In this document: positions 38,989 to 43,075 of the stretch, piece after piece | Layout of the letters: each line of letters opens with the position of its first letter | Position numbering within the stretch: position 1 is the stretch's first letter | Assembly: GCA_025055115.1 (NCBI GenBank) | Contig: JANWYJ010000008.1 | Coordinates: 1-44,229, forward strand | Source of the DNA: Gemmata sp. | GTDB lineage: Bacteria > Planctomycetota > Planctomycetia > Gemmatales > Gemmataceae | Reading direction: 5' to 3' | DNA: 44,229 nt | The notes under the pieces: generated by a model | The model's database searches: none | Seen by the model: the letters and a program-made list of their open reading frames with translations, nothing else | Told to the model about the DNA's origin: nothing | Translations under genes and position numbers: made by a program

Positions 38989-39329
38989 CCTAACCCCACG
39001 ATCCCCCTGCCACCGGGGCCTAAGCCCACTTTCCCCGAAACATCCACGGCCATCCGGTGACCGATACCGATCGGCAAAGGGTGAAAAAAGTTATCGCAAT
39101 CATCGACCAATTCCGCGGCTTTGTGGGAAGGGGTCACCCCTCAGCTGCGGAGTGTGACCGATCAGCTGCGGAGTGTGACCGATCTCGAATCGCTAAGGAG
39201 GTCCTAGGTGCCCGGGGCGAAAAATTTCCGGACAATTCCTGTTGCCGAATTGGCCCGGGCGACGTAATTCTTTACTAACTCGCTGTGCCTGCGAAGGCTG
39301 CGGGTTACTGACAACTAATTATCGGTGAG
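38989..39329. other. Intergenic region upstream of the riboswitch
   Basis: This stretch of 341 bp contains no credible gene. A 73-codon frame at 39057-39278 merely translates the 21-bp tandem repeat and has no ribosome site. A candidate promoter for the downstream operon is TTGCCG (39242-39247), 17 bp from TAATTC (39265-39270). This is weak evidence, but the start would fall shortly before the aptamer. A small inverted pair CCCC/GGGG at about 39005-39018 may end the zinc-ribbon transcript. Confidence 0.45.
39141..39182. repeat. 21-bp perfect tandem duplication
   Basis: TCAGCTGCGGAGTGTGACCG plus A occurs twice without mismatch (39141-39161, 39162-39182). It lies about 150 bp upstream of the SAM riboswitch. 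Because the unit is 21 bp it keeps frame in a false ORF. Confidence 0.9.
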
Positions 39330-39556
39330 CATCTTATCCAGAGTGGCCGAGGGTCCAGGCCCGACGACGCCACAGCAACCGGGTGAGAAAGCGCGACCGG
39401 GGATTTGTGATACTTCACCCACCGACCGTATCCCGATTCTCGGGATGAGTCACGAATCGCCAGTCTCTCTTTCCGCTGCTGGTGCTAACTCCTGCCCGGC
39501 CCATACCACCGCGGCGTCGATCCGCCGCGACGGTCAGACCGGGGAAGATAAGATCT
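39330..39556 (+). promoter_or_regulatory. SAM-I (S-box) riboswitch with expanded P3
   Basis: The aptamer core is complete. P1 is ATCTTATC (39331-39338) paired with GATAAGAT (39547-39554). The P2/kink-turn region reads AGAGTGGCCGAGGG then GGCCCGACGACGCCAC, with GTGG/CCAC pairing. The invariant GCAACC is at 39375-39380. The invariant GGTGCTAACTCC is at 39481-39492. P4 closes with CCCGG/CCGGG (39495-39499 with 39539-39543) around a GCGGCG/CGCCGC hairpin. Between GCAACC and GGTGCTAA lie 100 nt instead of the usual short P3; they hold stems GGGTGA/TCACCC and ATCCCG/CGGGAT. It senses S-adenosylmethionine in the leader of the thrC-like operon. Confidence 0.92.
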
Positions 39557-39590
39557 CGCGTGGGGCACTTCCTCCACCGTTCTCTTATCT
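39546..39590 (+). promoter_or_regulatory. Putative expression-platform helix competing with P1
   Basis: AGATAAGA (39546-39553) contains most of the 3' strand of aptamer P1 and can pair instead with TCTTATCT (39583-39590). GTGG (39560-39563) with CCAC (39574-39577) extends the alternative hairpin. The two folds are mutually exclusive, as expected of a riboswitch switch. There is no T-run after it, and the thrC start is 140 nt further on. The mode (termination, Rho or translation) therefore cannot be settled by eye. Confidence 0.55.
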
Positions 39591-39731
39591 CGCCGCACAC
39601 CGCCCGACCCGGTGGTGCCACCCTGGCTCAGAACCGCTCCCGATCGGCCACACGCCACAATGGCTGGGCTATCCCCACCACCAGCCACCGGCGTGTGCGT
39701 GAACCACCGACCGATTCCGAGGAGGATTTCC

Positions 39732-41006
39732 GTGGCCAGTAACGACTTCGTCTTAGGGTTGAAGTGTCGTGTCTGTGGCAAGTTATATCCGAAAACCGCG
39801 GCCCGATTCTATTGCGACGACGACACCGGACCGCTCGAAGTCGCTTACGATTATGAGAAAGTTGCGCCCCACGTCAGCCGGGCAAAATTCCAGGCACGTC
39901 CGCGTAACATGTGGCGTTACAAGGAGTTACTGCCGCTAGAGGGCGAACCGACCGTCGGTCCGCAGGTGGGGGGCACGCCCTTGGTGCGGGCCGATCGCCT
40001 CGCGGAAGCCCTCGGTGTTGAACGATTGTGGATCAAAAACGATGCGGTCAACTTCCCCACGTTGTCGTTCAAAGATCGTGTTGTGTCGGTTGCGTTGTCC
40101 AAAGCCCGCGAATTCGGTATGCGGATGGTCGGTTGTGCCAGTACCGGCAATCTGGCCAATAGTGTCGCGGCTCTGGGCTCTTCGGCCGGCTTGGAGACGA
40201 TTATTCTCGTTCCGGCGGACCTGGAGAAAACGAAAATCTACGGCACCGCGGTGTACGGGGCCAGAGTCATCAAAGTCGCCGGCACCTACGATCAAGTCAA
40301 CCGGTTGTGTACACAAATTGTTCAGGAGTTCGGCTGGGGTTTCGTCAACGTCAACCTGCGGCCGTTTTACGCGGAAGGCTCCAAAACCGTCGGTTTCGAG
40401 ATCGCTGAAGACCTCGGTTGGCGTTTCCCGCAGCATGTCGTCTGCCCCATGGCCGGTGGGGCCTTGATTGGCAAGATTTACAAAGCCTTTCAAGAACTTC
40501 ATGCCACCGGGATTGTCCACCATCAAGTGACCACCAAAATGTACGGAGCGCAAGCCAGCGGGTGCAACCCCATCAGCGAGTGTGTCAAAAGCGGCCGTGA
40601 ACGGCACAAACCGATCCGCACCCCCCATACCATCTGCAAGAGCCTGGCGATTGGCGATCCGGCCGATGGCTACTTCGCCGCCCAATTGATCCGCAACACC
40701 GGCGGCTGGGCCGAAGATGTAAGCGATGCGGAAATCGTTGAGGCCATGCTGCTGTTGGCCCGCACCGAAGGGATTTTCGCAGAAACAGCCGGCGGCACCA
40801 CTTTAGCCGTGACCAAAAAGCTCATCGAGCAAGGCCGTATCCCGCGGAACGAAGAAATCGTTGTCTGCATCACCGGCAACGGTCTGAAAACCCAAGACGC
40901 GGTCTTCGAAGCCCTCGAAGAACCCATCACCATCAAACCCACTCTCGCCGAGTTCAAAGCCCTCACCGGGCTGGATGAACCGGTCGCAGAACCTGCGTTG
41001 GTGTGA
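39732..41006 (+). CDS. Threonine-synthase-like PLP enzyme under SAM riboswitch control
   Basis: The start is GTG 39732, with GAGGAGG 7-8 bp upstream; the frame from 39612 runs through the leader and is not coding. The 424-residue fold-type II PLP enzyme has an N-terminal zinc-ribbon-like segment (Cys12, Cys15, Cys28), VGGTPLVRADRL, the PLP lysine at 114 (LSFKDR), the phosphate-binding loop CASTGN at 135-140 and the ending CITGNGLKT. Threonine synthases convert O-phosphohomoserine to threonine. The loop continues LANS rather than the common T.AS, so the subfamily is distinct. Its leader is a SAM-I riboswitch and the CysO-like and MoeB-like genes follow. A role in homocysteine formation is therefore possible; the usual annotation would be thrC. 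Confidence 0.85.
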   Translation: MASNDFVLGLKCRVCGKLYPKTAARFYCDDDTGPLEVAYDYEKVAPHVSRAKFQARPRNMWRYKELLPLEGEPTVGPQVGGTPLVRADRLAEALGVERLWIKNDAVNFPTLSFKDRVVSVALSKAREFGMRMVGCASTGNLANSVAALGSSAGLETIILVPADLEKTKIYGTAVYGARVIKVAGTYDQVNRLCTQIVQEFGWGFVNVNLRPFYAEGSKTVGFEIAEDLGWRFPQHVVCPMAGGALIGKIYKAFQELHATGIVHHQVTTKMYGAQASGCNPISECVKSGRERHKPIRTPHTICKSLAIGDPADGYFAAQLIRNTGGWAEDVSDAEIVEAMLLLARTEGIFAETAGGTTLAVTKKLIEQGRIPRNEEIVVCITGNGLKTQDAVFEALEEPITIKPTLAEFKALTGLDEPVAEPALV

Positions 41007-41246: not shown

Positions 41247-41519
41247 ATGGCCATCACAATTCAAATTCCGCCGCCGCTGCGGGAGCAAACCGGGGGCCGG
41301 GCCGAGGTGGAAGTGAGCGGGGCCACCGTCCAAGCCGCGCTGGCCGATCTGATCCGGCAATACCCCGGTACGGCCACCAAGATATTCGACAATGGCCAAA
41401 TCCGCCCGTATATCAACGTCTTTGTCAACGATGAAGACATCCGCTACCTCGACGAGCTGAACACCCAGTTGACCGATGGTGTGGTGGTGGCACTGATTCC
41501 TGCGGTCGCGGGAGGCTGA
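41247..41519 (+). CDS. CysO/MoaD/ThiS-family sulfur-carrier protein
   Basis: This 90-residue beta-grasp (ubiquitin-like) protein ends in the Gly-Gly tail that is adenylated and turned into a thiocarboxylate. GAGGAG lies 5-6 bp before the ATG. Among carriers it resembles mycobacterial CysO most, from memory: both share VNDED(V/I)R around residues 58-65 and the exact ending PAVAGG, and both begin with PP/P..LR..TGG. MoaD and ThiS lack these. In mycobacteria CysO-COSH delivers sulfur to CysM, a fold-type II PLP enzyme, for cysteine synthesis. Here the neighbouring PLP enzyme is threonine-synthase-like. The next gene begins 3 bp after its stop. Confidence 0.9.
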   Translation: MAITIQIPPPLREQTGGRAEVEVSGATVQAALADLIRQYPGTATKIFDNGQIRPYINVFVNDEDIRYLDELNTQLTDGVVVALIPAVAGG

Positions 41520-41522
41520 GGC

Positions 41523-41858
41523 GTGCCGGAACCGTCGCCATCACCGTCCGAAGCACCCGAAGGAGCCGCCGTCTTCCCGTTGATCCCGGCGGAGCTGGGC
41601 GTTCACCCGTTGTTGCTGGCGGCCTTGCATGCCTATGTGTTCCTCAACGGCTCCGATCCGGCTATCGTGCACCCTGCGGCCGCGGAGGAAGCCCTGCATT
41701 ACCTTGTCACGTATTTCCAACGGCTCCACGGCCCCGAACTGCGCCGCGTCCGCGAAGATATGGCCACCCTCGCCGCCTTCGCCAAAGCCGAAAAATGGCC
41801 CGCACAACAAGTTCGTTTCCTGCGCGAATTTCTCGCGGAGCATGGTATCGGCCAGTAA
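41523..41858 (+). CDS. Unknown small protein of the sulfur-carrier operon
   Basis: I do not recognise this 111-residue protein. It starts at GTG 41523, with GGGAGG about 5 bp upstream, only 3 bp after the sulfur-carrier stop, so it is part of the operon. It begins with a Pro/Ser/Glu-rich stretch and is then mainly helical (HPLLLAALHAYVFLNG, EEALHYLVTYFQRLHG, RREDMATLAAFAKAEKWP, VRFLREFLAEHGIG). It has no Cys, so it cannot be a thiol relay itself. It has no membrane helix or signal. A role as adaptor between the carrier, the adenylyltransferase and the PLP enzyme is possible from position only. Codon use resembles its neighbours. Confidence 0.8.
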   Translation: MPEPSPSPSEAPEGAAVFPLIPAELGVHPLLLAALHAYVFLNGSDPAIVHPAAAEEALHYLVTYFQRLHGPELRRVREDMATLAAFAKAEKWPAQQVRFLREFLAEHGIGQ

Positions 41859-41885: not shown

Positions 41886-42023
41886 ATGGCGGCTATCCTC
41901 CCGTGGCCACCGCGCAGGGCGAAATCCACCCCGGTTGGCGTGCGGCCGGAACTGGCCCGGCACGCAGCCGCAGTGTCCGATAACCTGGAACTGATCGCTG
42001 GCCTGGACCTCCAACAACCATGA
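41886..42023 (+). CDS. Possible 45-residue ORF coupled to the MoeB-like gene
   Basis: ATG 41886 has GGGGTG about 7 bp upstream and opens a 45-codon frame (MAAILPWPPRRAKS...VSDNLELIAGLDLQQP). Its TGA overlaps the ATG of the MoeB-like gene (ATGA), a typical coupling arrangement. It fills an otherwise empty 161-bp gap and its C-terminal half looks like a short helix. There is no family match. It may be a real small protein or just a leader that drives translation of the next gene. Confidence 0.4.
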   Translation: MAAILPWPPRRAKSTPVGVRPELARHAAAVSDNLELIAGLDLQQP

Positions 42024-43075
42024 TCGACACCCCTTCCCTCGAACGCTATTCCCGGCAAATGCGCTTCCCCCCTCTGGGGAAAGCCGGACAAGAGAAATTG
42101 CTGGCCGCGCGCGTCACGCTGTGTGGTTGTGGCGCGCTGGGCACGGTGCTGGCGAACATCCTGGTGCGGGCTGGCGTGGGTTTCTTGCGCGTCATCGACC
42201 GCGACTTCGTCGAACCCTCGAACTTGCAGCGGCAAGTGCTCTTCGATGAATCTGATGTCGCGAACAATCTACCCAAAGCGGAAGCCGCGGCGGCCAAACT
42301 CCGCCAGATCAACTCCACCGTCACCATCGAGCCGATTGTCGCGGACATCAACCGAACCAATATCGAAGATTTCTGCCAGGGTGCCGACCTGATTCTCGAT
42401 GGCAGCGACAACTTCGAAATTCGCTACCTCATCAACGATGTGGCGATCAAGCACAATATCCCGTGGGTTTACGGCGGGGCGGTCGGCAGCCAGGGCATGA
42501 CGATGACCATCATTCCCGGACAAACTCCGTGTTTGCGCTGTGTGTTTGAGGCCGCGCCGGCTCCGGGGGAAACCGGAACATGCGAAACCGCCGGCGTTCT
42601 GGCCCCTGCGGTCCAGATTGTGGCCAGTTATCAGGCCACGGAAGCGATCAAGCTGCTCACCGGTCATTCCGCGGCGATCAACCGCGAGCTACTGATTCTT
42701 GATGTGTGGGAAAACACACAGCGGCGAGTGAAAATCGCCCCCCTGGCCGGTCGCAAAGGCGCGTGCCCCTGCTGTGCCCAACGGAACTTCGCGTGGCTCG
42801 ATGGTGAACATGGCACGCAAACCACGGCTTTGTGCGGTCGGAATGCCGTGCAAGTCAGTCACCGCGTCCAAGGTAAACTCGACTTCGCTGAACTGGCCCG
42901 CGTGCTCCAGCATTCGGGAACCGTTACCTACAACAAGTTCCTGCTGAAGTTCCACCTGGTCGAAAATGGCTCCCCGTACGAATTCACCATCTTTGAAGAT
43001 GGTCGCGCCATCATCAAAGGAACCGACGAACCGGAAAAAGCCCGCACGCTCTACGCCAAGTACGTTGGCCACTGA
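42020..43075 (+). CDS. MoeB/ThiF-family sulfur-carrier adenylyltransferase
   Basis: This 351-residue protein activates the C-terminal glycine of a sulfur-carrier protein with ATP. Its E1-like domain (1-245) shows ERYSRQMRFPPLG, the nucleotide loop GCGALG (36-41), DRDFVEPSNLQRQ, DGSDNFEIRYLIND and two zinc CxxC pairs (CLRC and CPCC). The conserved Cys before AGVL (GTCETAGVLAP) may form the acyl-disulfide intermediate. There is no rhodanese domain, unlike MoeZ. Instead the last about 90 residues form a separate domain with TTALCGRNAVQVS and FTIFEDGRAIIKGTDEPEKARTLYAKYVG, known from some ThiF/HcyF-like proteins. Its Cys could relay sulfur. The start overlaps a small ORF upstream. Confidence 0.93.
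   Translation: MIDTPSLERYSRQMRFPPLGKAGQEKLLAARVTLCGCGALGTVLANILVRAGVGFLRVIDRDFVEPSNLQRQVLFDESDVANNLPKAEAAAAKLRQINSTVTIEPIVADINRTNIEDFCQGADLILDGSDNFEIRYLINDVAIKHNIPWVYGGAVGSQGMTMTIIPGQTPCLRCVFEAAPAPGETGTCETAGVLAPAVQIVASYQATEAIKLLTGHSAAINRELLILDVWENTQRRVKIAPLAGRKGACPCCAQRNFAWLDGEHGTQTTALCGRNAVQVSHRVQGKLDFAELARVLQHSGTVTYNKFLLKFHLVENGSPYEFTIFEDGRAIIKGTDEPEKARTLYAKYVGH

Follow-up and report, generated by a model that had tools for sequence, protein, structure and literature searches.

A SAM-I riboswitch with a 100-nt P3 arm in a Gemmata-like planctomycete, and palindromic repeats in the P3 inserts of related lineages

Stem-loop-forming "variable insertions" are known in riboswitches (Barrick and Breaker 2007, PMC2258182), and a pneumococcal BOX repeat has been described between two T boxes (PMC3049150). 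The SAM-I riboswitch analysed here lies in a window of 44,229 nt, which is the whole stretch of DNA under study, and its P3 segment answers to the description of a variable insertion, since it is nonconserved, forms a stem-loop and spares the core. As in the earlier collection, a long, nonconserved and stable stem-loop is found at a tolerated site. The accessible parts of that paper (PMC2258182) give no source for the insertions, whereas in the present case the inserts of related lineages were traced to dispersed palindromic repeats. The likeness to the BOX case (PMC3049150) is that a repeat element has been made part of a composite riboswitch leader; in the available portions of that report, however, BOX is placed between aptamers, whereas inserts of the window type are located inside a single one. 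With REP/MITE-like repeats the comparison is mixed. Inserts from two relatives (genomes G028 and G016) are members of multicopy families whose self-complementary units measure about 60-100 nt, but the window's own insert falls in no multicopy family found. In the open-access literature (titles and the beginnings of abstracts, with few subscription papers) no account of repeats inside a riboswitch aptamer was found, which is weak evidence of absence, and the accessible parts of PMC3049150, PMC12452182, PMC2864571, PMC10969869, PMC2267715, PMC5764234, PMC2258182, PMC3110155, PMC3088659 and PMC1590033 contain no such case. The tracing of variable insertions to repeats may be new.

The aptamer (Table 1) matched the Rfam family RF00162 over all 108 model positions on the forward strand, with a score of 62.8 bits and an E value of 2.2e-12 (gathering cut-off 44.4). 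This covariance-model search had been named as a check in the original prediction, and the SAM-I assignment made there was borne out. The match was the sole one above the gathering score in the 44-kb window, and a nested second aptamer or another known RNA inside the insert was rejected on this basis. In the host genome (G000; 4.93 Mb, 100 contigs) no RF00162 match was found beyond that of the window. All the core S-box elements that had been recognised by eye, namely P1, the kink-turn with P2, GCAACC, GGTGCTAACTCC and P4, were present, and when the 224 nt were folded without constraints, the minimum-energy structure contained P1, P2 and P4 along with the P3 arm. The locus resembles other SAM-I (S-box) riboswitches in its full-length match, its conserved core and the aspartate-family gene downstream; it differs from them in the 100-nt P3 and in a P4 arm extended to 50 nt. 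Judged by its sequence, the element is a genuine SAM-I riboswitch of a Gemmata-like planctomycete, for which the sensing of SAM itself is predicted.

Compensatory changes among relatives had been proposed as a further check on the core, and they were found in P1 and P2a. Depending on the position, P1 was paired in 74 to 86 of the 87 family aptamers, with two-sided changes at pairs 1 and 5. All four pairs of P2a were formed in 87/87 aptamers, and two of these pairs showed two-sided changes (TA replaced by CG in three aptamers, GC by AT in three). P4 pairing was parsed in 73/87 aptamers in a partly wrong register (one assumed pair never paired).

Table 1. Features of the SAM-I locus and of the downstream genes (positions in the window)
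Feature	Position	Strand	Basis
SAM-I (S-box) aptamer	39331..39554	+	RF00162, 62.8 bits, model positions 1-108
P1, 5' strand (partner 39547-39554)	39331..39338	+	RF00162 alignment; 8 pairs
P2 with kink-turn side	39344..39372	+	RF00162 alignment; P2a pairing
GCAACC, P3 base, 5' strand	39375..39380	+	sequence and RF00162 alignment
P3 segment, one long imperfect hairpin, 100 nt	39381..39480	+	fold, shuffles, family lengths
P3 arm stem GAAAG (partner CTTTC, 39469-39473)	39387..39391	+	pair probability >=0.997; kept in G023
P3 arm stem GATTTGTGA (partner TCACGAATC, 39450-39458)	39402..39410	+	pair probability 0.93-1.0
Apical hairpin ATCCCG/CGGGAT	39430..39446	+	pair probability 0.88-0.98
GGTGCTAACTCC, P3 base, 3' strand, and J3/4	39481..39492	+	sequence and RF00162 alignment
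P4 arm, 50 nt	39495..39544	+	family comparison
Candidate anti-P1 element: GATAAGA (39547-39553), complementary to TCTTATC (39583-39589), with a G+C hairpin (39560-39577) between them	39547..39589	+	fold
AGGAGG, likely ribosome-binding site	39720..39725	+	read in sequence
Threonine-synthase-like PLP enzyme, 424 aa, GTG start assumed	39732..41006	+	PF00291, 3.3e-72; TIGR00260, 283.1 bits (cut-off 167.1)
ThiS/MoaD-like sulfur-carrier protein ending in GG	41247..41519	+	PF02597, 9.6e-15; NF041918, 62 bits (cut-off 60)
111-aa ORF between ThiS and ThiF	41523..41858	+	no Pfam or NCBIfam match
ThiF/MoeB-like adenylyltransferase	42020..43075	+	PF00899, 1.1e-76

The fold points to a candidate mode of switching. 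Binding of SAM would fix P1, by which GATAAGA would be withheld from the downstream TCTTATC and expression would be lowered; when SAM is missing, the anti-P1 helix would form. Repression by SAM is expected here because it is the known behaviour of the SAM-I family. The word CTTATC occurred at most 110 nt downstream in all 17 genus loci whose sequence extended far enough and in 23 of the 68 remaining loci. Its distance within the genus was 29-44 nt in 16 loci and 78 nt in G018. A terminator-like match, consisting of the hairpin at 39560-39577 followed by CGTTCTCTTA, was found once with 0.7 expected, i.e. at chance level. A sigma-70-type promoter was looked for at the locus and was not found. 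Two adjacent 21-nt units with 86% identity (GTCACCCCTCAGCTGCGGAGT and GTGACCGATCAGCTGCGGAGT) were observed at 39133-39174, some 160 nt ahead of the aptamer.

The P4 arm deserved attention as well. A conserved internal loop (GGCAAACGCC...GGTATGGCC) was present in P4 of 18/87 parsed aptamers, unlike the freely varying P3. Most genus relatives have the CAAACG/GGTATGG internal loop, which is absent from the window. The 5' side of the window's P4 carries CCATACC in its place, a weak hint that the arm might be inverted. When the P4 arm of the sister genome G023 was aligned to that of the window, the reverse complement scored 20.0 and the direct strand 15.5; none of 2000 shuffles reached 20.0 and 66 of 2000 reached the difference. 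Among 13 relatives, nine gave a higher score for the reverse complement, three a lower one and one the same. An inversion of the arm between the window and G023 was not established.

The P3 segment comprises exactly 100 nt from GCAACC to GGTGCTAA (from 39481; GGTGC), as had been counted at the outset, and self-complementary sequence appears to have extended it by about 60 bases. The stretch 39374-39487 was more stable than 200/200 of its dinucleotide shuffles (z = -4.58). The predicted fold is a single long arm, built from GAAAG/CTTTC and GATTTGTGA/TCACGAATC (every pair >0.92) and capped by ATCCCG/CGGGAT. The original prediction had instead described at least two extra stems. One of them, ATCCCG/CGGGAT, was recovered as the cap, with a counterpart (CCCC/GGGG, about 0.86) in the G023 arm. 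The other, GGGTGA (39381-39386) with TCACCC (39415-39420), had a pair probability of 0.0 and had to be given up; TCACCC is missing from the G023 segment. It is true that the complementary words of both stems occur in the sequence, but the pairing of GGGTGA with TCACCC would exclude the stronger long arm, and a multi-branched P3 domain with two separate inserted stems is scarcely credible.

A homologous P3 segment of 99 nt was found in G023, with 80% identity to that of the window. Its presence in a second genome makes an assembly artefact unlikely. The first 50 aptamer positions differed at only two places, against 20 of the 100 P3 columns. The G023 segment forms a similar arm, with a shifted GTGATTCGTG/CACGAATCAC stem at pair probabilities of 0.64-1.0. 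When the 39 P3 pairs of the window fold were followed in G023, 31 were unchanged, one was kept by a one-sided change, six were broken and one was gapped. No pair had changed on both sides, so a conserved function of the inserted stems is unsupported by covariation. The search for covariation in these stems had been part of the original prediction; G023 holds the sole homologue of the arm, and it brought no two-sided compensatory change. The comparison shows an arm that was retained as a predicted hairpin, without compensatory evolution between the two genomes.

In order to place the arm among its relatives, P3 lengths were compared across the family, where RF00162 was present in 87/95 genomes. 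From 92 matches 91 were taken, the second match of G013 (29.5 bits) being left out, and 87 could be parsed. Outside the parse remained L007, L064, L090 and L091, the last two of which scored under the cut-off; the P3 of L007 was read separately and measures 34 nt. Across the 87 parsed aptamers P3 ranged from 15 to 110 nt, and in 10/87 it measured at least 59 nt, a limit for "long" that was chosen after the lengths were seen (the next lower value is 54). In the window's genus, P3 was 37-42 nt in 14 of the 18 parsed aptamers and 95, 99, 100 and 110 nt in the other four. The original view of the long P3 as abnormal is correct in that the segment is greatly lengthened for its genus; as a long P3, however, it is a recurrent type within the family. 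All 87 P3 segments folded better than the mean of their own mononucleotide shuffles (median z = -2.15) despite widely differing sequences, and the turnover of sequence was wide even among relatives with 37-42 nt. The stretch after J3/4, with P4 included, varied from 28 to 65 nt in the family.

The ten long-P3 aptamers require eight changes of length when placed on a maximum-likelihood tree of 83 regulated proteins; these may be gains or losses, as the tree does not tell which. The number was also eight at the 5% and 95% bootstrap points, and the starred branches force eight. The changes fall on G000 with G023 (one event), G016 (110 nt), G022 (95 nt), G028, G027, G049, G040, and G038 with G039. 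G018, the nearest relative of G000 and G023, has a P3 of 41 nt; by parsimony, the 100-nt arm would have arisen after the split from the G018 lineage and before the split from G023. Relatives of the regulated protein occur in Gemmata, Fimbriiglobus, Zavarzinella and further Gemmataceae, among others. Twenty further loci, mostly outside the genus and family, were picked from 80 relatives found with this protein; 19 of them carry RF00162, and L249 does not. P3 measured 19-30 nt in the 13 of these 19 loci that were parsed (L238, among them, was read too long), and six were left unparsed, including L241 and L243 with aptamers 168-170 nt long. An insert at another site was seen in L061 and L062 (from G038 and G039): a hairpin-forming sequence of about 31 nt that separates GAG from GGGATCAGGCCC on the kink-turn side of P2. 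P3 is also long in these two aptamers.

The source of the inserts was sought with the long P3 inserts of the window and G023, G028, G016, G027, G038/G039, G022 and G049 as queries. The insert of G028 matched 30 further places in its own genome at E<=1e-5; 20 of these 30 copies were read, and all but one were near-perfect palindromes. The insert of G016 recurred at 13 other places of its own genome (E<=0.01) and gave 33 matches, both strands counted, in G017. It scored 66.7 bits (E 1.2e-13) against a covariance model built from eight other copies, from which the P3 copy was excluded, and the same model had matches in 16/19 genus genomes at E<=0.1. For G027, 26 matches were obtained in the own genome (both strands and the query itself counted), the best other one at E 4.3e-10. 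The case of G038/G039 is weaker: counted in the same way there were 27 and 7 matches, which were mostly stretches of 21-28 nt with E values from 6e-4 to 7e-3. The four matches of the G022 insert were only partial (best E 6.4e-4), which makes a weak case for a repeat copy, and for the G049 insert no copies were found in its own genome at E<=0.01. As far as sequence comparison goes, P3 inserts can be recognised in three or four lineages as copies of palindromic repeats that are scattered through the respective genome. In G016 and G022 even the outer P3 stem was replaced, so that the pattern in these two does not by itself indicate a simple insertion into the loop. At L255-L258 and at many places in G015-G018 and G020, a dispersed palindromic family (GATTGCAGATTTGTGATTGATGATTGAAAGACAGG with its complement) was noticed; model matches numbered as many as 133, both strands counted, in one genome (G017).

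The insert of the window is self-complementary, but the multicopy test was negative in the host and in near genomes. No dispersed copy of it was found in the 95 family genomes, where G000 and G023 alone stood above noise and the other matches among the best candidates (at most nine per genome) were short and had E values of at least 0.0077. With the G023 copy as query and all candidates scored in the 19 genus genomes, there was again no dispersed copy (best other E 0.042). Membership in the GATT palindrome family of the genus was considered and was not established. The profile of the GATT element did not match the insert, and the covariance model gave 15.8 bits (E 0.19), which reflects hairpin shape only, because an unrelated palindrome in G028 scored higher (23.4 bits). 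Copies of the GATT family were found in neither G000 nor G023 among the 150 candidates scored in each. The insert shares with this family a 10-of-10 match, GATTTGTGAT, in the matching half-arm. Its single-arm score was reached by 7/1000 shuffles and its joint score by 1/1000, the arm being chosen post hoc and the shuffles not preserving palindromes; the corresponding counts per 1000 were 164 and 42 for the G023 copy, not far from the 384 and 57 of the unrelated G022 insert.

The reading that we favour, with moderate confidence, is an intact SAM-I switch that would control the threonine-synthase-like gene through anti-P1 pairing and whose P3 carries a passive, decayed insertion of a palindromic repeat. 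A palindromic repeat element would have landed in P3; it could be tolerated since it folds back on itself and leaves both the base of P3 and the SAM pocket unaltered, and it would then have decayed. The insert shared by the window and G023 is, on the pattern of the other lineages, probably a decayed palindrome. Growth of P3 by ordinary drift, i.e. by small duplications and template switches in a hairpin that evolves fast, without participation of a mobile element in the window's lineage, is less likely, though the strongest of the alternatives. It would agree with the rapid turnover of P3 sequence among the short-armed relatives, the lack of dispersed copies of the window/G023 insert, the replacement of the outer stem and the variable stretch that contains P4. 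Against it stand the inserts of G016 and G028, which are demonstrable repeats, and the lengths within the genus, which are discontinuous and leap from 42 to 95 nt.

The insertion reading takes the arm as probably a passive extension with no part in switching. That the arm was selected for a function, be it as a hairpin bound by a protein or through tertiary contact with the extended P4, appears improbable by comparison. Such an arm might be expected to be kept in two genomes and to be highly stable, as this one is, and the conserved P4 internal loop of the genus could make the contact. The window, however, lacks that P4 motif, sister lineages have unrelated P3 sequences, and between the window and G023 the arm diverged far more than the start of the aptamer, with pairs broken and none exchanged on both sides. 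It is very unlikely that the insertion broke a once functional aptamer and left a pseudo-riboswitch. The score of the window is lower than that of most relatives (up to 89.6 bits), but two genomes retain the core elements, P1, the anti-P1 element and the gene intact.

With regard to the family as a whole, it is suggested tentatively, at somewhat less than even chances, that P3 of the Gemmataceae SAM-I riboswitch is a recurrent safe landing site for putative mobile palindromic repeats. These would enter the aptamer, lengthen P3 while leaving SAM sensing unharmed, and then decay into lineage-specific variable insertions, the arm of the window being a late stage of decay, and repeats could quite generally give rise to the peripheral domains of riboswitches. 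What draws interest is the broader pattern of independent captures; for the window's own copy a decayed insertion is the most likely origin. With traced and untraced inserts side by side, possible stages from fresh insertion to decay may be compared in one RNA before one gene. For annotation, repeat masking could hide aptamers, and long inserts do not necessarily imply new regulation.

The downstream gene was the same in nearly all loci: among the 84 parsed aptamers for which the downstream sequence sufficed, 83 are followed by a relative of the threonine-synthase-like gene. The arrangement extends beyond the phylum, since SAM-I was found upstream of a thrC-like gene in 19 of the 20 further loci tested, Verrucomicrobiota included. 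Three genes of G000 scored above the cut-off of the thrC model, the third barely. A relative of ThiS followed the gene in 46/47 nearer and 17/18 farther loci that offered at least 2 kb of sequence, and a relative of ThiF in 44/47 and 6/18. Relatives of the 111-aa ORF were found downstream of thrC in 44/47 nearer loci and in 0/18 farther ones. We infer a link of this gene to methionine, and its product may be a thiocarboxylate-dependent homocysteine synthase that uses O-phosphohomoserine rather than a threonine synthase. The succession of a threonine-synthase-like enzyme and a ThiS-like protein across phyla is the more surprising neighbour of the finding. The second SAM-I aptamer of G039 (L005) has no thrC-like gene within 1500 nt downstream.
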